Below, in pieces: positions 1-23,144 of a stretch of 23,144 nt of DNA. The DNA is from a virus. The notes below the pieces were generated by a model, which searched no databases, had not been told where the DNA came from, and saw only the letters and a list, made by a program, of their open reading frames with translations. The first letter of the stretch is position 1. Each line of letters starts with the position of its first letter. The stretch lies in IMG/VR virus record IMGVR_UViG_3300042554_001880, positions 1 through 23,144 of that record; one strand, written 5' to 3'. Made by a program: the position numbers and the translations under genes.

Positions 1-1
1 A

Positions 2-1372
2 GAGGACGGCACCTTCGTCTACAGCGGCAAGATTTACCTGCAAGACGGCACCACCCGCACGGTGCCCATGCCCGACCTGCAGAACATCACCCGCATCACG
101 CGCTCGGCGGGTAACCTGGAGAAGTGGCGGCGCTTCCCTCAGATGCTGATCAAGCGGGAGTTGTACGACCTGTTGGCGATCTCGTGCATCTCTTTCGGCG
201 CTCCGCTCATGCGCTTCACCCAGATGCCCTGCCTGACGTTCCACGCAGGCTCAACCCAGTCGGGTACGGGTAAATCCTTGGCGCTGTCGCTGCTCAATTC
301 GGTGTGGGGTCACCCAGTGCGATATCGCACAGGCAAAAGCACCTCCCCCGTTACGATGCAGCAGCGGATTGGCAATCTTAACTCACTCCCCTTCACATCG
401 GACGAAATCACGCACAAGTCGCGCCACGACATGGAGTGGTTCCCGGGCATGGTGTTCGACCTGTCCGAGGGCCAGGGCAAGGAGAAGTCAGAGGTTCACC
501 ACAACCGCGAGCGCATCAACCTCGTGTCGTGGGCAACCCTGGCGCTCTTCACGTCCAACACCCACATGCAGGACTACATGGCTGGTGTGCGAGCGCACAC
601 TTCCCAAGGCGAGTTGCTGCGGATGTTGGAGTGGACGCCCGAGGAGAAGCTGAACTGGACGCCTGAAGAAGAGCAGACCATCCGCGTCCTGCAGGAGAAC
701 TACGGTGTGGCCGGTGAAGCCTACGTGCGTTGGCTCGTGCAGAACCAGGAGACGGCTGAGCGCGTTACCCGGGAAACCATCGCCATGATCAAGCGCGACT
801 GGCAGATGACCGGTGATGAGCGTTTCTGGGCCGGTGGCTGCGGCGCGATGATCGCAAGCGCCATCCTCGTCTCGTCCAAGTACGCAGGCATCATCGACCT
901 GCCTGTCGCGGAGATCATCAAGAGTCTCAAGCGCATGGTGGACAAGGCCCGCCGCGTGGTGCGCAACGGCGTGCGCACGGCAGAGGATGTGCTCAACGCT
1001 TTCACCCGTGACAGCTACGGCCAGTTCGTCGTGATCAAGAAGAGCGACGGCAAGGTGTTGGCTGCACTGGGCAGCGGGGAGATCATCGACCAGACGATCA
1101 CGCGCAACAAGGTGTTGGGGCGCGTGGAGCACGAGATCGAGGTAGCCGGGTACGTGGACTACTTCATCGAGGAGCAGGTCATCCGCTCACACTGCGTGGC
1201 GATGTCGTTCGGTTACGAAGACTTCAAGAAGCAACTAGAGCAGATTGACGGCTACACCGTGTCGTACATGCGCAAGGACATGATGGCCCGCACCAGGGGG
1301 CCGCAGATGCGCATCCGAGCCATGTGCATCAGGCGCAGGGTTGAGCGTGATACTCCCGTGGACGACGCTTGA
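2..1372 (+). CDS. DUF927-like phage primase/helicase-type ATPase, 3' part (5' end outside the window)
   Basis: The reading frame is open from base 2, so the GTG at 62 is unlikely to be the true start and the gene continues beyond the left edge. A P-loop GTGKS lies at 263-277, with the lysine codon at 272-274. It is followed by a Walker B-like Asp-Glu at 401-406 (context LPFTSDEIT) and a sensor-1-like Ser-Asn at 554-559 (LALFTSNTH). The motif SQGELLRMLEW then resembles the 'GE..R.LE' element of DUF927 proteins. That family pairs a helicase-like ATPase core with primase modules in phages and plasmids, and the role here is probably DNA replication initiation or unwinding. The last ~200 residues are predicted mostly helical, with no further domain recognised. 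It is the only large plus-strand gene, so replication and structural genes point at each other. The ATPase fold is fairly certain; the DUF927 name is moderately so. Confidence 0.72.
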   Translation, partial: EDGTFVYSGKIYLQDGTTRTVPMPDLQNITRITRSAGNLEKWRRFPQMLIKRELYDLLAISCISFGAPLMRFTQMPCLTFHAGSTQSGTGKSLALSLLNSVWGHPVRYRTGKSTSPVTMQQRIGNLNSLPFTSDEITHKSRHDMEWFPGMVFDLSEGQGKEKSEVHHNRERINLVSWATLALFTSNTHMQDYMAGVRAHTSQGELLRMLEWTPEEKLNWTPEEEQTIRVLQENYGVAGEAYVRWLVQNQETAERVTRETIAMIKRDWQMTGDERFWAGGCGAMIASAILVSSKYAGIIDLPVAEIIKSLKRMVDKARRVVRNGVRTAEDVLNAFTRDSYGQFVVIKKSDGKVLAALGSGEIIDQTITRNKVLGRVEHEIEVAGYVDYFIEEQVIRSHCVAMSFGYEDFKKQLEQIDGYTVSYMRKDMMARTRGPQMRIRAMCIRRRVERDTPVDDA

Positions 1373-1604
1373 GAAGGGGCAGGGGTTCTTCATCCCTGCC
1401 CTAGACCTCGACGCCACGCGTGAGGCGGGGCTACTGGCTGCAGTCAAGGCCCGCGTGCTAGACGCTCAAGCCTTGTACTGCCTCCATAACGGTATGCAGG
1501 GCGTCCTGTTCTACCGCAAACCTATTGCTTCTTCTCCATCGTCACGTCGAAAGCCCGCAGGTACATCCGAGCAACCTGCTCCCGCTGAGCATCCAGACGC
1601 TTGA
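1347..1604 (+). CDS. small phage protein of unknown function, about 85 residues
   Basis: The gene overlaps the end of the ATPase gene and begins in another frame. I prefer the GTG at 1347 because AGGG at 1337-1340 lies six bases upstream; a TTG at 1341 in the same frame is the alternative. The conserved-looking core is LEKGQGFFIPALDLD followed by a helical stretch and GMQGVLFYRKP. This resembles a small family often seen beside phage replication genes, with a 'FF(V/I)P.LD' motif and a 'GVLF' ending. The function is unknown and I see no catalytic motif. The last ~26 residues (Ser/Pro/Ala/Arg-rich) are encoded opposite the 3' end of the giant minus-strand gene. They may be a recent read-through extension of an ancestral protein that ended near the YRKP motif. 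Moderately confident it is real. Confidence 0.5.
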   Translation: MILPWTTLEKGQGFFIPALDLDATREAGLLAAVKARVLDAQALYCLHNGMQGVLFYRKPIASSPSSRRKPAGTSEQPAPAEHPDA

Positions 1605-4600
1605 GGATTTCATCCTTCTGCTCGGTGGTCAGGTTCGCCGCATCTCTAACCTGCCGCGCCCTTGCAGCCAGATCGCCAAGCTGCTTGAAGACCGCCCCGC
1701 TGGTGGAGACAAGCGCCAGTTCAGTTGAGTACTGCTGAGCAAGTGCCCGTGCATCCGCCCCACGTCCTGCCTTGAGCATATCCTTGATGGTGCCGTCCAC
1801 CTCCTTGATCTGCTTCATCCGGTCGTAGGCCATGTCGATGGTGCCGCGCCCTTCAACCGGTTGGAACAGGCCGCCGATGAACGGCGTCTTGCTGAGCTTG
1901 GTTGTAGGCTCAGGCACCTCATCCTTGGGCAGCACTACGTTGACCAGCGGGTTGGCCAGTTGCGTGATGGCGATGCCCAAACCACCCGTATAGCCACGGA
2001 TCAGGTAGTCGATCTTGATGGGTGACACGCCCACTTCGCCGGTCACAGACCCAATCAGGCGGGCCAAGCCGGTAGTGGTGTCGCGGTAACGCTCGGTGGC
2101 CAGGACGCCTTGCTCGCGTACAGACTCGATGTCGCCGCTGTAGAACGACTTGCCCAGGATAACTTCCGTGAGCGGCTTGACCGCCTGGGGCAGCGTGAGG
2201 GGGATCGTTTGCGTGAGCAGCCTACGCATACCTTGCATGGCTTGATCGGCTTCAGTATCGCCTTTGGTAGCGTGATACAGCGCCTCGGGCAGCGCCTTGA
2301 ACAGGTAGCCCAGTTCAAACGGGATCGGCACGCGCACGGGCTCAGAGAAGCCGGGGATGTACACAAACCAGTTGGCCAGACGCTCTTCAGGCTTGGCCCG
2401 CTTGTAGGCTTCGTCGTCCTCCATCATCATGGCGTAGGCCATAGTACCCACGCTAAGCAGGAACCCGCGCGTCCACAGCTTCTGCCGAATCTTCAACTGA
2501 TCGTTGTACGGCATCCGCCCTCTGAATGCGCGGTACAGCACGTCCAGGCCCTGAACCTGCGCGTTGAAGAACGGGATCATGATGGACAGCGCCTGCATGG
2601 TGGGCGATATTCCGCGACGGCTGAAGTTCATCGACTCCAGTGTGCGCAGTGCAGCCTGCTGCTCCGTCATACCCTTCTTGAGCGAGTCGTTGTAGATCAC
2701 CGCACGCGTGGCAGCATCACCCTGCATGGCGAACTGGTCGGCCCTAGCCAACAACTTTTCCCATCCGCTCTTGCCTGCGGTAATGTCGCGCAGAAACATC
2801 TCCATGTCGCGCTTATCGCCGGTAAAGACGTTGCTGCTGATGGCGCCCATCGACATGAGCTTCTTCTCAGCGTCGCTACGTCCGGCCACAATCTTGCCCA
2901 ACTCCACGAAGGACGACAGCACAGGCGTCGCATCGGAGCCGGTGGTCAACCAAGCGTTGAGCGGGTCGCGGATAACCTGCCTGATGGCGTATACCGGTGC
3001 GCGTGTCACGAACTTGCGCAGCACATCAGCCGGATATCCCAAGACGTTGAACAGCCCAGGCAGTGTCGTCTGGATACCCTCCAAGCCACGCAACACCAGT
3101 TCTGCCGGGATGTAGTCTTTGTCGCCGGGTTTGCCAAACGCTTGGTCGATGACGACAAAGTGATCCTTGCCCTTGACCTTGAAGCGCACAGTACCAGCGT
3201 TGTTGGCAGGACCAGAGCCGGGGCCCATCCGCGAAGCGATGCCCATGTCGTGCAGACGGAACGCCGTGTCCTTGATGGCCTGATTGCGCAGGCCCATCCG
3301 GGTCAGGATGAAGGTGTTCTGAATGGCGCTTGTGAAGATCGGCAGGATGTCCTCGTTGCCACCAACAAGAGACTTGAGTTCAGGCTGGCTCTTGATGTCG
3401 CCGATGCGGATCGGGCGCTCCTTCTCCACAAACAACTGCACCGTATCGCCGTCGATGCGGTAGTACGGGATGTAGGGCTTGCTCTTGAGTTCAGCAGCCT
3501 TCTCTTTGGTCATCTCCCCCGTCTCAACCAACCAGTCAATCAGCCCGTTGTTGTACTCCTGGTAGATGCGGTTGGCTTCCTTAAATGCTTTCTCAGCCTT
3601 GGGGTTGGCGTTCAAGAACGCCATGACTTCGTTGTACTCGGCTTCCTTTTGTGCCGGGTCTTTGACGTTGAGTTTCTTCCAGCCAACGCTCTTTGCCCGG
3701 AGTCCAGCCACATACGCAGTCAGCATGGCTTCGGCTTCGGTGTCGCTATCGATACCAGCCTCGTTGAGCGCCTCCGCCACTTTGATCATGTTGGCACCGG
3801 CCTTGGATTCGTAGATGTACGAACCCTTGGGGCCCTTCGGATCAGGCACGCGCTTGACCGCGCCGTTGGTCAGGAACTGACCGGCAAACTGGCTGACTTG
3901 TTTACCGAAGCGCAGCGCGTACTCGGCATTGGCAGCATCTACCGAGTTCAGAATACCTTTGTCAGTACCGACCTTGAGCGCCTTGGATACAGCCGCGTAG
4001 TCATCAACGTACTGCACCCGCCCGCCCAGTCCCAGGAAGTTGCCGAACAGCTTGTCCTTGATTGACGACTCCTTGGCCGCAAAGGACTTAGCCATCGTCA
4101 CCGGCTGCTTGCGTGAACGGAAGGCAGTCTCGCCATCGGCGCTCTTGTACACACCGATACGCTTGCTCTCAAACGCCTTGCGCGATTGACGCAGCATGTA
4201 GAAGATGTCGGAGGTGCTGAGCTTAGCAGTCTCCATCATGCCCATGCGCCGCAGACCGGCGCGCACCATGCCTACGAGTTCCTTGATCCAACGACCGGCC
4301 TTCTCTCGGAAGGCAGCAGTAACCCGCGCCTCTTCGGTGTGGGCGATGATCTCGCGCAGCACCTGCAGCTTCTGCACACTTTCGGGCTTGCCCATATCGG
4401 CAAGCGTGTTGGCCACACCGGCTACCTCATTGAGCAGGTTCTTGCCGCCGATCTCTTCGGCCAGCTTGCCCAGGTCAGTCTTGTCGGCATACGCCTGCAA
4501 TTGCTTGAGGCCGATGAGGGTGTCGATACCGTAGTGGCCGACCAACTCGTGGGCAATCGTAGCCTCAAGGTCCTTGAGGTTGGCGTGGTTCTCGCCGATC

Positions 4601-7600
4601 ACGAGCACCGTACCGTCACTGAACACAGCGCCCTGCACCGTAGCTGGGTCGGCCTTTTCCTTGGCCATTTGGTTCAGCAAGCGTACGGGCACAGCGCGTG
4701 CTGTGGCGGCGTAGACAAACTTGACGTTTGAAGGAAGCTCTTCCTTCACTTTCACTATCAACTTCTCTGCTTCTGCAGCGTCAATTTGTCCGCCCTCGTC
4801 TTCACGTTTGCGATATGCAGTTCCTGCGTCGTTATCAAAATCTTGATATTCCCGCTCGCTACGCTGAGCTTCCTCAAAGTCGCGCTTGATCTGCTGCAAG
4901 CGTTCAAACTTTTCAGCCGTGGCTTTACGGCTTTCAGGCGAACCAGTACGCTCTTCGCTCGGAGCCTGGGAAACTTTGCGTGTGACTTGAGGCGTGCGCT
5001 TGGTCGGTACTGCCTGCTTACTAAACTTGGTTTCCTTCAGCGCCTCTTGCATGACGCTGATCTGTTCCTTCAGCGCAGCCTTGTACTCGGGCGTGGCTTT
5101 ACCAAGCGCAGTCGCGCGCTCAGTCGTTGCCAGCTTGGCCTTCTCTTGGAACTCAATAACCGCCGGGTCGTTGGCCCCGGACTTTTCCTTCAGTGCTTCA
5201 AAGCGGCGCTTGATGTCACTGGCAAACTTCTTGTACTCGGCCTCGTTGCGGCCCAGGTCAAGCGCCAACTTGCGCATCTCTTCAGATGCTTCGGCTTCTT
5301 TGCGAACATCACCGCGCTTGATGCGTGCTGCCGTTTGTGCAGCACGAGATACCGGCTGCTCCATCCGAGCGCGACGATCAAGCTCTGCTTCGCGAGCCGC
5401 ACGCTCCGCTGCCGGTGCCTCAACTTTTTCGCGGGTGTACAGACTCTTGTACAGGTCATCAATCTGGCGCTTGATGGGAACGACCCGGGTGTCGTTCAGC
5501 ATGTTGAACCGCCCGGCAATTGACTGCAAACGCTTGGTTGCCGCGCCACGCTCTTGGCCAGTCATTGGACGCTGCTCAGGCACAGCCTCGCCCTTACCCA
5601 ACGTGGCGTTCAACTCAGCCACCTTATCCTTCATAGACGGCTTGTAGGCGATGCCCGTCTCCAGTGCCTTGGAGATGAGCGCGTGCTCAGCGGCGAGGTC
5701 TTCCAGTTCCTGCAGGATCGAACGCTTGGCGTTTTTCTGCGGCTGCTCCACCTTGTTGCGCAGCGTCATGATCTGGTTCATCACGCTGTCTACTTGCTCA
5801 GGCGTAGCCGTGCGAGTAATTTTTTCACCCTTCAGCCCCAAGCGCTCGTCCATTGCTTTAACGAACTGCGCTTGTTCAGCGTCTTTTTGCTCTCGGGTCT
5901 TGGCCAACTCCTCACGCTTACGCGTTTCGATAACGCCCAGTGCTCGCTGCACTGCAACAGGGTCGTTGTTCTGAACACCCGTGCGCAACACATTGATGCT
6001 GCTAAAGATGTCTTCAGTGCGGTCGCGCGTAGGAACTACGTCTTGCAGTTCTTGCTGAAGCTGCGCAAGACGGCGCGGCGATGCGGGCTCAGTCTTTTTC
6101 TCAAGCCCGATGCCCATCTCATCAACTTGCGCGGCTTTGCGCAATGCTTCGGCACGCTTGTCGGCCTCAGACGGCTCAGCAGGCGCGGCTTCTGTAACGG
6201 GCTTAGTCTCAATAGCCGCAGCTTCTTCTGGCTTGGTCGCCAACGTCTCGATGGGCTTGCCTGCCAGAGACTTGAATTTAAGCGGGGTCTGGCCTTCCGG
6301 CTGAGCGGGCATCTCACCAAACAACTCGCGGGTCTGGCCGCGCTGCTCCATGCCGACCTGCTTCTCCTGCAGTGCCTGTAGGCGCTTTGTAGTATCGGCA
6401 GCAAGCGCGTCGCGTTCCTTCTTAGCGGCATCAAGCTGGGTGCCGATGTCCGTGGCCTTGTCGAAATCGCTGGCTTGCGCAGCCTTGGTGAAGTCTTCCT
6501 GCAGCTTGGTGATCCGGCTGTCAATAGCCGTCATCTTGGCCGCAGCCTGCTGCTGGAACTCCGTCTCGGGGATGGCCACACCACCACGCTCTTCGATCAG
6601 CGCAGCGCGCGCATCAATCCGACGCTGGAGTTGCTGACGCTGTTCGTTTAGCGAACGGAAGTCGTCCGTGCGGCCTTCGGTGGCGGCGGTCTGCAACTGG
6701 GGCAGCAGGGATTGAAGCTCGCGGTTGAGCGTGTCCTGCTCAACCATCAGGCGCTGCACATCGGGGATGGGCTCGGGTGCAGGAGCCGGTGCCGCAGGCT
6801 GCGAAGCCTTCAGTGCGTCAATCGCGTCTTTGCGCTTCTCATACTCTTGGCGGACAGGAAGGAATTCGTCTTCCGTAAACGTATCACGTGCCTGTTTGGC
6901 CTCTTGGTACGCCCGCCGCTCATCGGGCGTAGCCCCCTTCTTGGGCTTGACCACCAGAGCGTCGAGTTCTTCTTTCCGAGCCAGTAGCTGCTGATACTGC
7001 GCGTCAAGCGCCATCAGTGCGTCGGGTCGGTTCTTGGCAGCTTCTTCCTGCGCCGCTGCTGCCTGGGCTTGCTCCTGGGCAACACGGGCTTCTTCTGCGG
7101 CCATGCGGCCACGGGCACGACGACCAAGCGTCATGTCCAACAACCCCTGGGCCAAGGCACCAACGGCGCCGCCATAGGCGGCACTTTCACCCACCTGCTC
7201 AATGATCTCCTGCTCGGGCTTGTAGATGCCCTTGGCGATCATGTTCTGTGCAGCCTGGGATGCGGCTTCCTGAGCCGCCTCTTCACCACCGGCAACAAGC
7301 GCGCGTTTGATGGACGCAACCGCCCCGGCTTTGGCCGGTGCAGCTATGCGGTTGAGAATACGGAGGGGAGTGAAGGCTTCACTTACGCCAACAACAGCGC
7401 CAAGTCCTGTAGCTTGAGCGCGTTGGTCTGCCGTCGCGCCCTCGGCTTCGGCCTTGGTGCGGGCCTCACCTGCACCGGCACCCACACCCAGTGCGGTCGC
7501 GGCAGCTATGCCGGGGGCGCCAAACGGAACAGCGGCAATGATCGGAGCAATAGAACCTGCAGCTTCACCGAACTTGCGCCCGATGGTTTCCTCGTAGCCT

Positions 7601-7914
7601 TCCTTGGCAGCAAATGGGCGCTTGAGTGCGCCAGCGCCTTCGGCAATGATCTTGCGAGCGGCTTCTTCCTGCTCTGCGGGCAGCAGCGCGGAGGCGCCAA
7701 CTGCAGCCTGCTCCACCATCCCGATGGCGCCGGGGGCTAGACCCTTGAAAAACTCTCGTACCTGCCCACCCACCGTAGGCTCGGCAGGCTTTGGCTTGAC
7801 CTCTTCAAACAGTTCGGGAAACTTCTCACGGGCCAACTGCATGGCCTCCATGTAAGACATCCGATCCGGTACCTTCAAGGATGAACCATCCGGCAGAGGC
7901 AGATATTTGGCCAT
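1522..7914 (-). CDS. giant (2130 aa) polyvalent/ejection-type virion protein with HELVGH metallopeptidase-like motif and LPD38-like C-terminus
   Basis: Residues 4-21 carry a YLPLPDGSSLKVPDRMSY head motif. Gly/Ala-rich hydrophobic segments follow at about 59-80, 117-150, 166-180 and 243-262. A long charged, coiled-coil-like region (about 268-1010) is rich in Ala, Glu, Lys and Gln. HELVGH lies at residues 1122-1127, an HExxxH metal-binding pattern of the 'HExxGHyG' type. REIIAHTEE at 1187-1195 could supply a third ligand (E1188 or E1194). The C-terminal part (about 1640-2000: DPLNAW, IPFFNAQVQGLDVLYRAF, PFELGYLFKALPEAL) resembles large polyvalent protein-associated domain 38. Such giant proteins are thought to be packaged and enter the host with the DNA, like T7 gp16; that role is inferred. 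The ATG start is preceded by GGGA, and the stop is TAG. It is the last gene of the late operon, with no terminator seen beyond it. The motif is certain; protease activity is untested. Confidence 0.8.
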   Translation of the reverse strand: MAKYLPLPDGSSLKVPDRMSYMEAMQLAREKFPELFEEVKPKPAEPTVGGQVREFFKGLAPGAIGMVEQAAVGASALLPAEQEEAARKIIAEGAGALKRPFAAKEGYEETIGRKFGEAAGSIAPIIAAVPFGAPGIAAATALGVGAGAGEARTKAEAEGATADQRAQATGLGAVVGVSEAFTPLRILNRIAAPAKAGAVASIKRALVAGGEEAAQEAASQAAQNMIAKGIYKPEQEIIEQVGESAAYGGAVGALAQGLLDMTLGRRARGRMAAEEARVAQEQAQAAAAQEEAAKNRPDALMALDAQYQQLLARKEELDALVVKPKKGATPDERRAYQEAKQARDTFTEDEFLPVRQEYEKRKDAIDALKASQPAAPAPAPEPIPDVQRLMVEQDTLNRELQSLLPQLQTAATEGRTDDFRSLNEQRQQLQRRIDARAALIEERGGVAIPETEFQQQAAAKMTAIDSRITKLQEDFTKAAQASDFDKATDIGTQLDAAKKERDALAADTTKRLQALQEKQVGMEQRGQTRELFGEMPAQPEGQTPLKFKSLAGKPIETLATKPEEAAAIETKPVTEAAPAEPSEADKRAEALRKAAQVDEMGIGLEKKTEPASPRRLAQLQQELQDVVPTRDRTEDIFSSINVLRTGVQNNDPVAVQRALGVIETRKREELAKTREQKDAEQAQFVKAMDERLGLKGEKITRTATPEQVDSVMNQIMTLRNKVEQPQKNAKRSILQELEDLAAEHALISKALETGIAYKPSMKDKVAELNATLGKGEAVPEQRPMTGQERGAATKRLQSIAGRFNMLNDTRVVPIKRQIDDLYKSLYTREKVEAPAAERAAREAELDRRARMEQPVSRAAQTAARIKRGDVRKEAEASEEMRKLALDLGRNEAEYKKFASDIKRRFEALKEKSGANDPAVIEFQEKAKLATTERATALGKATPEYKAALKEQISVMQEALKETKFSKQAVPTKRTPQVTRKVSQAPSEERTGSPESRKATAEKFERLQQIKRDFEEAQRSEREYQDFDNDAGTAYRKREDEGGQIDAAEAEKLIVKVKEELPSNVKFVYAATARAVPVRLLNQMAKEKADPATVQGAVFSDGTVLVIGENHANLKDLEATIAHELVGHYGIDTLIGLKQLQAYADKTDLGKLAEEIGGKNLLNEVAGVANTLADMGKPESVQKLQVLREIIAHTEEARVTAAFREKAGRWIKELVGMVRAGLRRMGMMETAKLSTSDIFYMLRQSRKAFESKRIGVYKSADGETAFRSRKQPVTMAKSFAAKESSIKDKLFGNFLGLGGRVQYVDDYAAVSKALKVGTDKGILNSVDAANAEYALRFGKQVSQFAGQFLTNGAVKRVPDPKGPKGSYIYESKAGANMIKVAEALNEAGIDSDTEAEAMLTAYVAGLRAKSVGWKKLNVKDPAQKEAEYNEVMAFLNANPKAEKAFKEANRIYQEYNNGLIDWLVETGEMTKEKAAELKSKPYIPYYRIDGDTVQLFVEKERPIRIGDIKSQPELKSLVGGNEDILPIFTSAIQNTFILTRMGLRNQAIKDTAFRLHDMGIASRMGPGSGPANNAGTVRFKVKGKDHFVVIDQAFGKPGDKDYIPAELVLRGLEGIQTTLPGLFNVLGYPADVLRKFVTRAPVYAIRQVIRDPLNAWLTTGSDATPVLSSFVELGKIVAGRSDAEKKLMSMGAISSNVFTGDKRDMEMFLRDITAGKSGWEKLLARADQFAMQGDAATRAVIYNDSLKKGMTEQQAALRTLESMNFSRRGISPTMQALSIMIPFFNAQVQGLDVLYRAFRGRMPYNDQLKIRQKLWTRGFLLSVGTMAYAMMMEDDEAYKRAKPEERLANWFVYIPGFSEPVRVPIPFELGYLFKALPEALYHATKGDTEADQAMQGMRRLLTQTIPLTLPQAVKPLTEVILGKSFYSGDIESVREQGVLATERYRDTTTGLARLIGSVTGEVGVSPIKIDYLIRGYTGGLGIAITQLANPLVNVVLPKDEVPEPTTKLSKTPFIGGLFQPVEGRGTIDMAYDRMKQIKEVDGTIKDMLKAGRGADARALAQQYSTELALVSTSGAVFKQLGDLAARARQVRDAANLTTEQKDEILKRLDAQREQVARMYLRAFDVTMEKKQ

Positions 7915-19314: not shown

Positions 19315-19824
19315 TTAGGGCTGGTCAGGCCAGTTGACGGTCCAGGGGAACCCAGCCTGCCCAGGCACATCCCGCAAGGCTTGGCGGTACGTTGCCCATA
19401 CAGCCTTGTCCACGGGGGAGTCTGCCAATTGGGTCCAGTCGCAGTCGGCAAGTTTCTGGTTGCGCTGCTCGCGTACACGCTGCGCCTGCTCCGCATCTTT
19501 CTGGGCCTTGTACGCTGCTTCATTCTCGGCGGCAGTCGTGACCTTGCCGTCTTCGTCCGTGGTGTCGGTGAAGATCGGGCCGAGCACATACTTGGTGTGC
19601 CATTTGCCGCCAATCTGCTCGACGCCCTGGCGCATGGAGAACTGATAGACCGTCCCGCCGGTAGCCTGTGGGCCCTCAAACACCACATCTGCCCCATGCG
19701 CGTCCAACCATTCCTCGGTCTGGGGCAACACAGTGATCAATTCACTGGGATTCTGGTTGAGGAGCAGTTCACGGAACTCACTCCAAAACATCACTTGGCC
19801 CGTGGCCCGGATTCTGATTTCCAT
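19315..19824 (-). CDS. phage tail assembly chaperone (Phage_tail_APC-like), 169 aa
   Basis: The C-terminal ~50 residues (RNQKLADCDWTQLADSPVDK followed by AVWATYRQALRDVPGQAGFP and WTVNWP) match the phage tail assembly chaperone family: an 'R..kL..cDWTqL.D.pvd...W..YRqaLRD' helix pair ending in a 'FP' and 'WP' motif. This domain normally sits beside tail-fibre genes and helps fibres fold or assemble. The N-terminal part (1-85) is a small beta-rich segment beginning MEIRIRATGQVMFWSEFREL, also usual for the group. A strong AAGGAG precedes the ATG and overlaps the stop of the adjacent fibre-like gene, tying its translation to the probable client. It is not a frameshifted tape-measure chaperone. 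Confidence 0.85.
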   Translation of the reverse strand: MEIRIRATGQVMFWSEFRELLLNQNPSELITVLPQTEEWLDAHGADVVFEGPQATGGTVYQFSMRQGVEQIGGKWHTKYVLGPIFTDTTDEDGKVTTAAENEAAYKAQKDAEQAQRVREQRNQKLADCDWTQLADSPVDKAVWATYRQALRDVPGQAGFPWTVNWPDQP

Positions 19825-19833
19825 GATTGCTCC

Positions 19834-21924
19834 TTATGCGATGGCAAGGAAGATGTATGTGCCGCCGTTTGCGTTCAACCCCGCTGGGGCTGCTGCGGTG
19901 ACTTGGAACCCCACACTGGTGGTGTCAACGTAGTTGGTGCCCGTAGTTTCCGAAGCGGACGAGTTCAAGATCAGGTAGGGATCATCGCTGCTGCTGATGC
20001 CGCGTGCGCTGTCGTACAACCACCAATCACCCGCGCTGTCCGTGCGCTTAATCAAAACGAACCGAGTGCCGCCTGTGAAGCCGCAGTTGACAGTCTGTAA
20101 CGCGCCAGTGCCGGTGTATGAGCCTACCTTGCTTACACCGGCGACGGTGGCAAAAAGATAGGCAACAAACGTATACGAACTGCTGTTCACGCCGTCAGCC
20201 GTACTTACCGTAAACACACTAGACGTTGGCGTTGTGTTGTTCCAAAACTGGGATGCAGTTATAGGCGCTTGGTCATTGTTTAAAGTTACAGCCCGGGTAT
20301 TACCGAGCGAAGAATGATAGGTAATCCAACTCTCGAAACCGGTGCGCGCCTTCACAATCATCATTTCAGGCACAGCACCCAAATTGTGCGACAGGGTTCT
20401 ATTGGCGCCGTTCCCTGTATAGCAAACCTCATCAAAAAAACCTGGGGCTCGGCGGAATGCCCAAGCGCCGTATCTTCCGGTACTGTTCAGGATCCCTGTT
20501 ACCGATACAGTGGTATTGGACTGGAAAGACGCTGATGGCTGATATGTGCCAGAGTCTTCGACGTTAGTTGAGTTGATCCTAAGGCGTCGGTTTACGCCAC
20601 GCAGCCTGTCCAAGTCCATGCGGTCGCCATTGAACTGGGTTTCTGACGCCCACAACATGTCTACCGGGAAATTTGTCGTAAGCGTTGTGGTGCCGCCAGA
20701 ACCGCCGCCGTTGTACTGGAACGGACTAAACACGCTCGTCCCCGTCGTCGGGGTTTTCATAGGGCCGCGACGGATGGCCATATAGACATGGATTCCTGCC
20801 CCACTATTCTGCTGCCACTGAAAACCGGTTGACGTTGGTCCCCAAACTATATTCCACGTGCTTTCAGCATTTGTTGAATTTGGTCTTAAAACAGATGTCG
20901 TGGTTGCCGGAGATGCGACGAACCCACGCATAGAGTCTGCTAATTGCCAGTTACCGGCATTGACCACCGACTTTACAAGTACCAGTTGCGGCTCATAGCC
21001 AAGCGTCACATCTAGATTTGTGCCGCTGCCGTCATCGGAAAAAAGGCCGCAGGTAATTACATTATCCACGCCTGTCGGACCAAAACCACCGGAGTTATTG
21101 CCAAAAATATAGGCAACATAAGTGCCCCCGCTTGCATTAACATCAGTAACCGAACTTGTGTCAATGGACTGATAGACTGTAAACGTCGTGGCGTTCGCAC
21201 CGCCAACGTATCCATTCCCGGCGGCGCCTGGGGTTGCCGCACTGGAGTTAAAGTCTAGAACTGCGCCACCATTTGTCCAAAATGTTTTCCAAGTCCCCGT
21301 TGTGTCCGTGCGCTTCACTATAATAAGGCCGGGAGTGCTGGTAAGGGCATGAGAAATAGCCCTCGTCCCTGTTCCGTCTCCCGTATACGTCACCACATCA
21401 AAGAACTTTGGCTGCTTGCGGAATGTCCATGAGACGTAGGTCTGCCCATTTTGATTGACGTTGGCATTATTCCCAATAGTAAAACCAGTCGATGTAAATC
21501 CCGTAATATCATTTATGCCTGGGCCTGATTGAGCGGCAGTACTGTTTGAATATATGATATTACCACCGCCCCGAGCCGTATCTGCAAAAGGATTATCCGA
21601 GGAGAGACTCCTGGATTTAACCCAAACAAGCCCGCCGCTACCGGTCAGATTAATTCCGTTGGTTATGGTTTGTGTGCCGCCCGCACCAGTGTATAGCCAC
21701 GTCGAGAATATTTCCTCGATATATACCGGGATGTAATTGGACGTGCCGTAGAAATTTTGAATGGAGATCGTTCCGCTGCTGGGCACTGCACCATACGTAC
21801 CACTGGTGCCCGCAGGAACCAACCCACCTCCGGCGTAATACTCGGACATTGCATGCGGAGTCGATCCGCCGAACTCACCGGCAATATCGTTGATACTAAG
21901 AGGGCCAGATGAAGGCAGTGGCAT
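19834..21924 (-). CDS. fibre-like protein of six tandem ~95-residue units (DUF7483-like), 696 aa
   Basis: Residues 1-60 form a short head: SSGPLSINDIAGEFGG and then AVPSSGTISIQNFYG, the same 'SSG.ISI.(D/N)' theme twice. This is common at the start of phage appendage proteins. From residue 76 to the end, six units follow (about 76-173, 174-274, 289-385, 400-491, 497-592 and 598-696). Each has YTG.G near its start, an 'L...P..(I/M)(I/L)VK.R' strand, a central Trp and a closing aromatic 'Y..(A/W)(Y/F).F' strand. Unit five (YTGNGANRTLSHNLGAVPEM, then MIVKAR) is closest to the DUF7483-type repeats seen in phage tail proteins. The protein is probably a rigid spike or decoration that contacts the host. 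AAGGAG precedes the ATG. Confidence 0.78.
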   Translation of the reverse strand: MPLPSSGPLSINDIAGEFGGSTPHAMSEYYAGGGLVPAGTSGTYGAVPSSGTISIQNFYGTSNYIPVYIEEIFSTWLYTGAGGTQTITNGINLTGSGGLVWVKSRSLSSDNPFADTARGGGNIIYSNSTAAQSGPGINDITGFTSTGFTIGNNANVNQNGQTYVSWTFRKQPKFFDVVTYTGDGTGTRAISHALTSTPGLIIVKRTDTTGTWKTFWTNGGAVLDFNSSAATPGAAGNGYVGGANATTFTVYQSIDTSSVTDVNASGGTYVAYIFGNNSGGFGPTGVDNVITCGLFSDDGSGTNLDVTLGYEPQLVLVKSVVNAGNWQLADSMRGFVASPATTTSVLRPNSTNAESTWNIVWGPTSTGFQWQQNSGAGIHVYMAIRRGPMKTPTTGTSVFSPFQYNGGGSGGTTTLTTNFPVDMLWASETQFNGDRMDLDRLRGVNRRLRINSTNVEDSGTYQPSASFQSNTTVSVTGILNSTGRYGAWAFRRAPGFFDEVCYTGNGANRTLSHNLGAVPEMMIVKARTGFESWITYHSSLGNTRAVTLNNDQAPITASQFWNNTTPTSSVFTVSTADGVNSSSYTFVAYLFATVAGVSKVGSYTGTGALQTVNCGFTGGTRFVLIKRTDSAGDWWLYDSARGISSSDDPYLILNSSASETTGTNYVDTTSVGFQVTAAAPAGLNANGGTYIFLAIA
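19837..21699 (-). repeat. six-unit protein repeat array in the fibre-like gene
   Basis: The units are listed under the 696-residue protein. They are diverged (no obvious DNA identity), so this is an old protein-level repeat, not a recent duplication. Units two, five and six keep the 'TG.G' and 'VK.R / IKR' signatures best; units one, three and four are looser. A short spacer of about 15 residues lies before unit three and another before unit four. Confidence 0.7.
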
Positions 21925-21933
21925 TTCTACTCC

Positions 21934-23144
21934 TTACGGGGTGCCGTAGGCGGTGACGTTGTTCAAGCCGACCAGATTGCCGGTGCTGTCGATACTCAGC
22001 ACCGGGGTGCCGTTGTAACTGATCACCAGTTTAGTGCCAGACTGCGTCACAGTGAAGTTGGTCGTGGACAGCGAACCGGCAGACGTGGCAGTTGTTGCCG
22101 AGGTCGCGGATGTGGCGGTGGTGGCAGAAGTAGCGGTTGTGGCCGACGTAGCGGTCGCCGCGTTGCCGCTAATATTGATGCCCCAGGTGCCGCTTGCGCC
22201 TGTGCCGGTGGGAGATGGAACATCCGTTCCAATAACTAGCCCTAAATTAGTCCGCGCCCCAGACGCCGTAGTAGACCCAGTACCGCCGTTGGCCACGGCC
22301 AGCGTGCCGGTGAAACTGATGTTGGGCGTTGCCCCGCCAGATGAGGCCAAGGGCGCTGAAGCGGTGACCGAAGTGACCGTACCGCCTGAGCCAGAGGCAG
22401 ACAGCGTGCCGCCTGCAAAACTGATGCCCGATCCGATGGTGACGTTGCTGAATCCACCCGCGCCGTTGCCGTACAGAATAGACGTGCCGGACGTGGCCGG
22501 AGCGTAGTCAGTACCCGCCACAGCCGCAGTGAATGCGCTCGTCCCGCTGGCCTTGACGATGCCCGTCAGGGTGTTCACCCCCGTACCGCCGTTGGCCACA
22601 GGCAGGATGCCTGAAACTTGGGAGGTCAAGCTGACCGCAGACAGCGAGCCGCCGAGCGTGAGGGAGCCTGTGGAGGTTACCGTGCCGCTGAGCGTCAAGC
22701 CCTGCACCGTGCCGGTGCCGGACACCGAAGTCACGCCGTCTGCCGTCGAGGTGGCGACCGTTACGAAGTCGGTACCAGTCCAGGCCACAAGCGCCCGAGC
22801 ACCCGCAGCGACAGAAGTGCCAGTGGTGGCAGAACCCTTGACGACAACCGCCGCATCCGACTGGTTGTGGACGATGTAGGCTTTGCTGGTGCTGGGAGCG
22901 ATGATGTTCCGCGTGACACCCGGCGAGCCAGTAGGGACGAGGATCGCGCACCGCGCCTGATTGACAGCCCCGGAGCCGGTGGTGGTCAGGGTCCAATCGC
23001 CAGAGGCGACCGATTGAGTGGCCGTCGCAGCAATGGAGTCTTCGACCAACTCCGTGATGCTGTTGTTGACCGTAGTCCCCCAGGTGCCGTCGAGTTCGCC
23101 CTCGACTGGAAGAGCAAACCCGAGCAGTGAGGTGTACGCGGTGG
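21934..23144 (-). CDS. tail fibre protein, 5' end outside the window
   Basis: The frame stays open to the right edge and translates there as ...TAYTSLLGFALPVEGELDGT then WGTTVNNSITELVEDSIAAT. This is the standard head of many phage tail fibres ('LPv.GeldGTWG..vN..I'). The TTG near 23049 is therefore not the start. Two ANGGTG motifs (ILPVANGGTGVNTLTG and LAVANGGTGSTTASGARTNL) are typical of repeating fibre shaft proteins. They are followed by SGNAATAT and a TATSAT repeat. The C-terminus (GTKLVISYNGTPVLSIDSTG) is a short beta domain with no recognisable autochaperone. The gene lies 9 bases upstream of the 696-residue fibre-like gene, so both may belong to one appendage. Confidence 0.85.
   Translation of the reverse strand, partial: TAYTSLLGFALPVEGELDGTWGTTVNNSITELVEDSIAATATQSVASGDWTLTTTGSGAVNQARCAILVPTGSPGVTRNIIAPSTSKAYIVHNQSDAAVVVKGSATTGTSVAAGARALVAWTGTDFVTVATSTADGVTSVSGTGTVQGLTLSGTVTSTGSLTLGGSLSAVSLTSQVSGILPVANGGTGVNTLTGIVKASGTSAFTAAVAGTDYAPATSGTSILYGNGAGGFSNVTIGSGISFAGGTLSASGSGGTVTSVTASAPLASSGGATPNISFTGTLAVANGGTGSTTASGARTNLGLVIGTDVPSPTGTGASGTWGINISGNAATATSATTATSATTATSATSATTATSAGSLSTTNFTVTQSGTKLVISYNGTPVLSIDSTGNLVGLNNVTAYGTP
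22081..22164 (-). repeat. 18-bp-period imperfect repeat encoding TATSAT hexapeptides in the tail fibre
   Basis: On the coding strand the codons read TATSAT, TATSAT, TATSATSAT, TATSA, with mostly third-base differences between units. Protein identity is kept while DNA differs, so it is an older, selected repeat. This Ala/Thr/Ser motif follows SGNAATAT, as in many fibre shaft linkers. Confidence 0.75.

Follow-up and report, generated by a model that had tools for sequence, protein, structure and literature searches.

A fiber-like gene in a 23,144-base virus record, the whole of which we call the window, raises the question of what its repetitive protein is and how the parts of that protein come to differ between related phages. 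The original prediction had placed a six-unit region at 19837–21699, which corresponds to residues 76–696 of a 696-aa ORF. On the minus strand, the genes are read in the order of a probable fiber gene near the record end, the 696-aa gene, a PF16778 gene, a 164-aa gene, a DUF4337 gene, a holin-like gene, phage lysozyme and virion structural genes. The holin-like gene matched GTA_holin_3TM below threshold only (E 0.89), and its PHROG match is a family of unknown function.

Six homologous units in two DUF7483 triads

The features of the locus are as follows.

19834–21924, minus strand: six-unit fiber-like gene, 696-aa ORF
19315–19824, minus strand: 169-aa downstream gene, tail assembly chaperone family (PF16778, Phage_tail_APC, E 1.8e-21)
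21934–23049, minus strand: upstream ORF near the record end, 371 aa as listed, no Pfam or PHROG match
21736–21924, minus strand: head, residues 1–63 (pLDDT <50 over residues 1–60; no Pfam match in residues 1–71)
21415–21735, minus strand: unit 1 (A of the first DUF7483), residues 64–170 (DUF7483 profile 5–104, E 5.5e-19)
21082–21414, minus strand: unit 2 (B, first DUF7483), residues 171–281 (profile 128–222, E 2.5e-11)
20761–21081, minus strand: unit 3 (C, first DUF7483), residues 282–388 (profile 233–326, E 5.8e-07)
20449–20760, minus strand: unit 4 (A of the second DUF7483), residues 389–492 (profile 5–103, E 1.1e-06)
20134–20448, minus strand: unit 5 (B, second DUF7483), residues 493–597 (profile 128–230, E 6.9e-25)
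19837–20133, minus strand: unit 6 (C, second DUF7483), residues 598–696 (profile 231–327, E 6.3e-17)

The gene directly adjoins that of the tail fiber assembly chaperone, which also matched PHROG tail fiber assembly (E 3.2e-19). A chaperone-like ORF lay at most 1,500 nt downstream in 178 of the 191 six-unit genes with at least 750 nt of downstream sequence. Judged by position and composition, the 371-aa upstream gene probably encodes a fiber protein as well. Across most of the fiber gene (20001–22000), 1-kb windows had a G+C content of 51–53%, compared to 55–64% in other windows. Elsewhere in the record, a 2130-aa protein (1522–7914, minus strand) matched LPD38, a large polyvalent protein associated domain (E 2.3e-31), and contains a HELVGHYG stretch, which we take to resemble a metallopeptidase motif.

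The 696-aa protein matched Pfam DUF7483 (PF24299) in two stretches, residues 72–384 and 399–696, with E 1.4e-86 and 291.1 bits (curated cut-off 27 bits); the first copy and the head alone reached 124.6 bits. Each unit also matched the family by itself, with units 1 and 4 on the first third of the profile, units 2 and 5 on the middle and units 3 and 6 on the last third. Profile–profile comparison of six alignments of 54 sequences linked 15 of 15 unit pairs at probabilities of 95.0–100, while all 15 pairs remained at or below 1.7 in a reversed-target control. Because all pairs matched and the strongest were units 1 and 4 (E 1.1e-16), 2 and 5 (2.2e-42) and 3 and 6 (1.1e-25), the body reads as A-B-C twice, with A, B and C mutually homologous. 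Self-comparison of the single sequence was weak, with a score of 70 for the best 40-residue diagonal and maxima of 28 to 63 in 20 shuffles. Besides the window, the alignments drew on 53 of the 61 representatives selected below 90% identity, with L068 dropped before that count; L002, L016, L069, L073, L075, L077, L078 and L079 were left out as a near-duplicate, or for an unclear start, a long-insert form or a fragment.

The claim of six related units after a head, thus, held up. Its repeated folded units stood as well, but it had missed the two A-B-C copies of DUF7483 and the conserved DNA at the unit junctions discussed below. A shared tryptophan signature was borne out in part: every unit of the protein has at least one Trp, but residues invariant across the 54 sequences (166, 212, 326, 533, 561 and 634) fall in five of the six units and not in unit 4.

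The full-length structural model (mean pLDDT 87.2, pTM 0.86) has six strand repeats of 7–9 strands each, preceded by residues 1–60, predicted to be disordered; the second triad folded alone gave pLDDT 85.2 and pTM 0.73. A continuous beta-helix or a single domain, either of which would have spoken against a six-unit fiber-like protein, does not match these repeats in the model. From the strand order and the kind of weak structural matches, the predicted unit fold would be a sandwich. Among predicted viral proteins, the best match (E 1.5e-73) came from an uncultured phage and belongs to DUF7483. Against the PDB, Foldseek returned one full-length match at E ≤0.001, with probability 0.28 and TM 0.12, and none at that threshold for triad 2, whose sequence profile hit no PDB chain better than E 0.38. 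VIA-align stayed below Z 8, the level termed common by the tool; 3h6j was the top match of both the full model (5.5) and triad 2 (5.9), followed for triad 2 by the Kp9 tail fiber gp42 (7xy1, 5.8), the phiKZ baseplate (9xqs, 5.2), the Fri1 tailspike (6c72, 5.2) and 6e1r (5.2). As regards a C1q/TNF-like trimeric jelly roll, in which three jelly rolls surround a threefold axis, triad 1 aligned weakly to two engineered single-chain trimers, adiponectin (4dou; model residues 67–388, Z 3.8, rmsd 5.1, 195 aligned) and the C1q head (5hzf; residues 70–389, Z 3.7, rmsd 5.4, 222 aligned); neither was among the 50 matches listed for triad 2. As these alignments extend over the whole of triad 1, they hint at a pseudo-threefold triad, and each triad may be a natural single-chain pseudo-trimer, with weak support from triad 1 and none from triad 2.

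Nearly fixed architecture among relatives

Relatives comprised 248 loci beside the window, from three viral scans (best 80 each, out of at least 600 rows in the third), a genome scan (2 loci) and six named records. In these 249 sequences, 273 unit-bearing ORFs were called by HMMs trained on the initial set of 54, and 221 of the 273 carried the exact order 1-2-3-4-5-6. The remainder consisted of 11 ORFs with unit 1 split by an insert, 10 with a single triad 1-2-3 (five running off the end), 28 partial ORFs (24 running off the end and 4 representing the split genes of L164 and L204), two that read 1-2-3-4-2-6 and one that reads 1-2-3-4-5-3. With unit number and order nearly fixed, a change of unit number was ruled out as the main source of diversity. 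Different heads precede a similar body, in six classes of 90, 70, 42, 8, 6 and 5 members by a crude pattern sort of 221 ORFs; the head of the 696-aa protein is probably a tail anchor.

We also looked for an invertible cassette system of the shufflon or Gin/Cin type, in the form of silent alternatives to the units, inverted and next to the gene. In 17 of 249 loci, two or more ORFs each had at least three units, and the extra unit-bearing ORFs of these 17 all lay on the strand of the main gene (249 short stretches, all frames, ORFs of at least 80 aa).

DUF7483 matches occurred in 62 phage records, with phages of Vibrio, Pelagibacter, Synechococcus and Roseobacter represented. Six units also occur in five cultured Roseobacter CRP phages and in the record ctnlZ23. 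Among bacterial genome contigs, 92 stretches matched a search pattern and two of them encode a relative.

Several variant forms were recorded. The unit-1 insert measures ~155–205 residues in its 11 ORFs (L069, L073, L074, L078, L106, L107, L115, L132, L150, L241 and L243). Single-triad genes stand in tandem just before the six-unit gene in L099 (three, 1–3819) and L096 (two, 3–2575), and the six-unit form may have arisen by duplication of such tandem genes. L089, a contig labelled as a Gracilibacteria MAG, has a 2254-aa open frame with three units (3–6764). In L204 (2998–4932) and L164 (2995–4840), two ORFs take the place of the six-unit gene, with the break near unit 2, due either to a sequencing error or to a broken gene.

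Unit-sized exchange blocks between relatives

A unit-by-unit comparison with relatives had been suggested as a way to find units exchanged by recombination, and it uncovered unit-sized DNA blocks with ends clustering at junctions. Among the 1,431 pairs of the 54-sequence set, 68 combined one unit at ≥85% identity with another at ≤60%. Pairwise identities correlated between the two halves of a unit (mean r 0.40, range 0.20–0.56), compared to a mean of 0.09 across a junction. In a sliding version, the correlation was close to zero at junctions 1 and 3 and 0.04 at junction 4, but dropped only to 0.13–0.21 at junctions 2 and 5.

For DNA-level analysis, we used a larger set of 221 bodies (189 unique, 183 representatives under 95%), leaving out 52 ORFs of other architectures. 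Defining a block as at least 45 codons at ≥94% DNA identity and an exchange pair as <80% identical overall, we found 76 blocks, of which 66 belonged to exchange pairs (57 of 16,653 pairs, involving 67 of 183 representatives). Single-unit swaps were identified for unit 1 (window/L003, residues 74–176), unit 2 (L016/L191, 173–280; L102/L124, 180–278), unit 3 (L200/L211, 289–391), unit 4 (L195/L225, 380–505; L004/L007, 383–504; L105/L121, 385–502) and unit 5 (L202/L229, 491–592; L050/L061, 495–605). Whole-unit blocks of this kind are, we presume, unlike the pattern of a diversity-generating retroelement. In 29 of the 57 exchange pairs, flanks were mostly unalignable or <75% identical.

The window itself illustrates both close and distant partners. 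With the gene masked, its flanks were 99.1% identical to those of L003 over 2,453 nt, mostly downstream (93.7% by a cruder, pro-rated estimate), while DNA identities of the unit interiors from unit 1 to unit 6 were 100, 39, 82, 37, 57 and 79%. Compared to L005, a different phage with flanks aligning over 369 nt at 70.7%, the respective values were 49, 41, 43, 36, 99 and 89%. Partners also shift by unit among contigs with the same head as the window, with the window and L003 paired in unit 1, L006 and L007 in unit 3, L004 and L007 in unit 4, and L003/L004 as well as L006/L007 in unit 5.

These mosaics might alternatively reflect no recent exchange but units that differ in evolutionary rate under host-driven selection. 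Such an account would be in line with unit 4 as the most variable unit everywhere (mean identity 31.5% over 1,431 pairs), with unit 6 as the most conserved (64.6%), and with 46 of the 68 uneven pairs being high in unit 6 only. We consider it scarcely credible, as the shared unit differs by pair (unit 1 in window/L003, unit 2 in L016/L191, unit 3 in L200/L211, unit 4 in L004/L007 and unit 5 in window/L005) and shared units are 97–99% identical in DNA with abrupt ends.

Junction zones, which account for 22.6% of the body, received 48 of the 78 block ends; in 2,000 null replicates, the mean was 19.2 and the maximum 34. Collapsing shared events left 52 blocks, with 43 of their 67 ends in the zones (null 16.5, maximum 29), and partly covered unit interiors were fewer than by chance (34 versus a null of 53.0). 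The zones had been defined on the initial 54 sequences, most of which are also in the set used for testing, and P values are approximate because pairs are not independent. The 30 of 78 ends outside the zones include several inside unit 6, for example at 632, 646, 647 and 648; this stretch, residues 629–648 (about 19981–20040, minus strand), is a possible further exchange hotspot.

Another reading is that assemblers jumped between phages at conserved junctions of a variable gene, making the mosaics assembly chimeras. All exchange blocks are between metagenome contigs, many of only 4–6 kb, and 13 of the 66 are 100% identical after rounding; furthermore, none of the 15 pairs formed by the five cultured Roseobacter phages and ctnlZ23 had a unit above 69% identity, and therefore no recent exchange was seen there. 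We nevertheless regard chimeras as improbable. Six-unit combinations recur in different contigs, forming 27 groups at >98.5% DNA identity with at least two contigs each, the window and L002 among them; one group stems from a further gene of previously counted contigs, and some of the contigs may come from a single site. Blocks involve recurring groups, such as those of the window, L018, L050, L232 and L247, and 53 of the 66 blocks are below 100% identity. Recurring combinations speak against chimeras, not against every single case. Chimeric joining would also not produce the synonymous conservation at four of five junctions described below.

L231 contains tandem six-unit paralogs (ORFs from 829 and 2863) that are 38–60% identical in units 1–5 and 94% in unit 6, which suggests that unit 6 was exchanged between copies in one genome. 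L217 and L249 have 99.2% identical flanks and identical DNA for residues 56–399, after which identity falls to 39%; the first triad is kept and unit 4 is different.

Junction DNA and a proposed recombination model

At four of the five junctions, synonymous sites are more conserved than the protein sequence would require. The corresponding stretches, with values for the 183 representatives, are as follows.

21376–21441, minus strand: junction 1 (units 1/2), residues 162–183, synonymous-site identity 0.60, 0.40 expected
21034–21117, minus strand: junction 2 (units 2/3), residues 270–297, synonymous-site identity 0.58, 0.37 expected
20719–20805, minus strand: junction 3 (units 3/4), residues 374–402, synonymous-site identity 0.61, 0.33 expected
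20407–20463, minus strand: junction 4 (units 4/5), residues 488–506, synonymous-site identity 0.55, 0.38 expected

The synonymous excess, defined as codon agreement where the amino acid is shared, beyond the prediction from codon usage, was 0.20, 0.21, 0.27 and 0.18 at junctions 1–4, compared to 0.04–0.08 in unit interiors. Junction 5 had an excess of only 0.07, though equally conserved in protein (identity 0.75). For conserved columns, the mean excess was 0.222 at junctions 1–4 (n = 50) versus 0.054 elsewhere (n = 125; approximate P 1.7e-11). Among 56 representatives from the CRP-like scan, junction 4 had an excess of 0.10, which is not above the unit 1 interior (0.12) or junction 5 (0.09). 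Modal codons were used in the window at 16/19, 6/18, 9/18 and 9/15 positions of junctions 1–4, that is, at a high rate in 1 and 4 but not in 2 and 3, and in ctnlZ23 at 17/20, 16/24, 18/23 and 5/12. The five CRP phages used modal codons mostly near their own unit-interior level; four of the five were higher at junction 3, where CRP-603 was low (4/14).

On inspection, the consensus revealed no short motif common to the different junctions. Between junctions 1 and 4, the modal sequences coincide at 31 of 57 bases, and this may be the reason that exchanged units stay in position.

We consider it probable that the gene encodes a receptor-binding fiber whose units are swapped position by position through homologous recombination at the conserved junctions. 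In a tailed phage, the 696-aa protein would serve as a tail fiber or a different kind of receptor-binding protein, attaching to a receptor on the host surface, with the short head anchoring it to the tail and the body formed by six beta-rich units in two DUF7483 A-B-C triads. Unit number and order would stay nearly fixed, while co-infecting phages, some of them with unrelated flanking genes, recombine homologously and thereby replace the alleles of one or a few positions at a time. The four DNA-conserved junctions would act as homology arms, each specific to its position, and direct incoming units to their own places (type 1 to position 1, and so forth); selection for new combinations may keep the junctions alike. 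Rad52-like phage recombinases have been reported to carry out relaxed homologous recombination (PMC3945230). A recombinase common to the family was not found among 23 large records searched for RecT (0/23), Erf (4/23) and YqaJ (2/23).

The exchange could also be real while the junction DNA is kept for another reason than as homology arms, namely because a site-specific recombinase or a homing nuclease recognizes it or because it acts as an RNA signal. We judge this unlikely. Synonymous conservation local to junctions 1–4, the different DNA of the junctions, as in the comparison of 1 and 4, and the lack of a family-wide annealing recombinase among the three families searched are compatible with it, but the consensus offers no short motif common to the junctions for such a target, and the 30 of 78 block ends outside junctions are as plain homologous recombination would allow.

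Parts of the recombination model have precedents: motif-guided domain swapping, shuffling of host-recognition genes and fiber sharing between distant phages are in print. For the T-even distal tail fiber, Tetart et al. reportedly described in 1998 the exchange of receptor-binding domains at conserved DNA motifs. In the study by Pas et al. 2023 (PMC10408124), conserved DNA motifs are presented as likely hotspots for swapping receptor-binding domains, and exchange across genera is suggested. The likeness lies in conserved DNA around variable receptor-binding parts; the study describes two or three motifs flanking a receptor-binding domain, whereas in our protein four such junctions separate paralogous units, six to a chain, that are exchanged singly. 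In cryoconite phages, according to Bellas et al. 2020 (PMC7468147), near-identical host-recognition variants recur in new combinations in otherwise stable genomes, with tail fiber and C1q-like genes among the variable parts. That shuffling is resolved to genes and domains, and ours to ~100-residue paralogous units with conserved junctions. Distant, otherwise unrelated Alteromonas phages share a fiber and chaperone module (PMC10579305), that is, a whole recognition module compared to single units here, and tail fibers are reported to vary between such phages (PMC6918029). In the open-licence literature searched, we found no case of independent exchange of several paralogous units in one fiber.

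That literature also yielded no account of DUF7483. The Pfam entry (PF24299), matched by both halves of the 696-aa body, gives no function; compared to a plain DUF7483 protein, two copies are fused here, each seen as three homologous units. If the recombination model is right, it would be the first mechanistic reading of this family without stated function. A widespread phage group would then evolve host recognition combinatorially, with single ~100-residue units exchanged in place, and host-range evolution could become readable unit by unit from sequence. The exchanges would also provide natural data on which receptor-binding units recombine without breaking the protein. More tentatively, and in our view doubtfully, the protein could be a position-addressed combinatorial adhesin, with four junction addresses, a common allele pool for the six positions across phages with unrelated flanks, new fiber combinations arising far more quickly than the remaining genome diverges, and triads that are possibly pseudo-trimers; if they are, all six faces would be free to vary independently.
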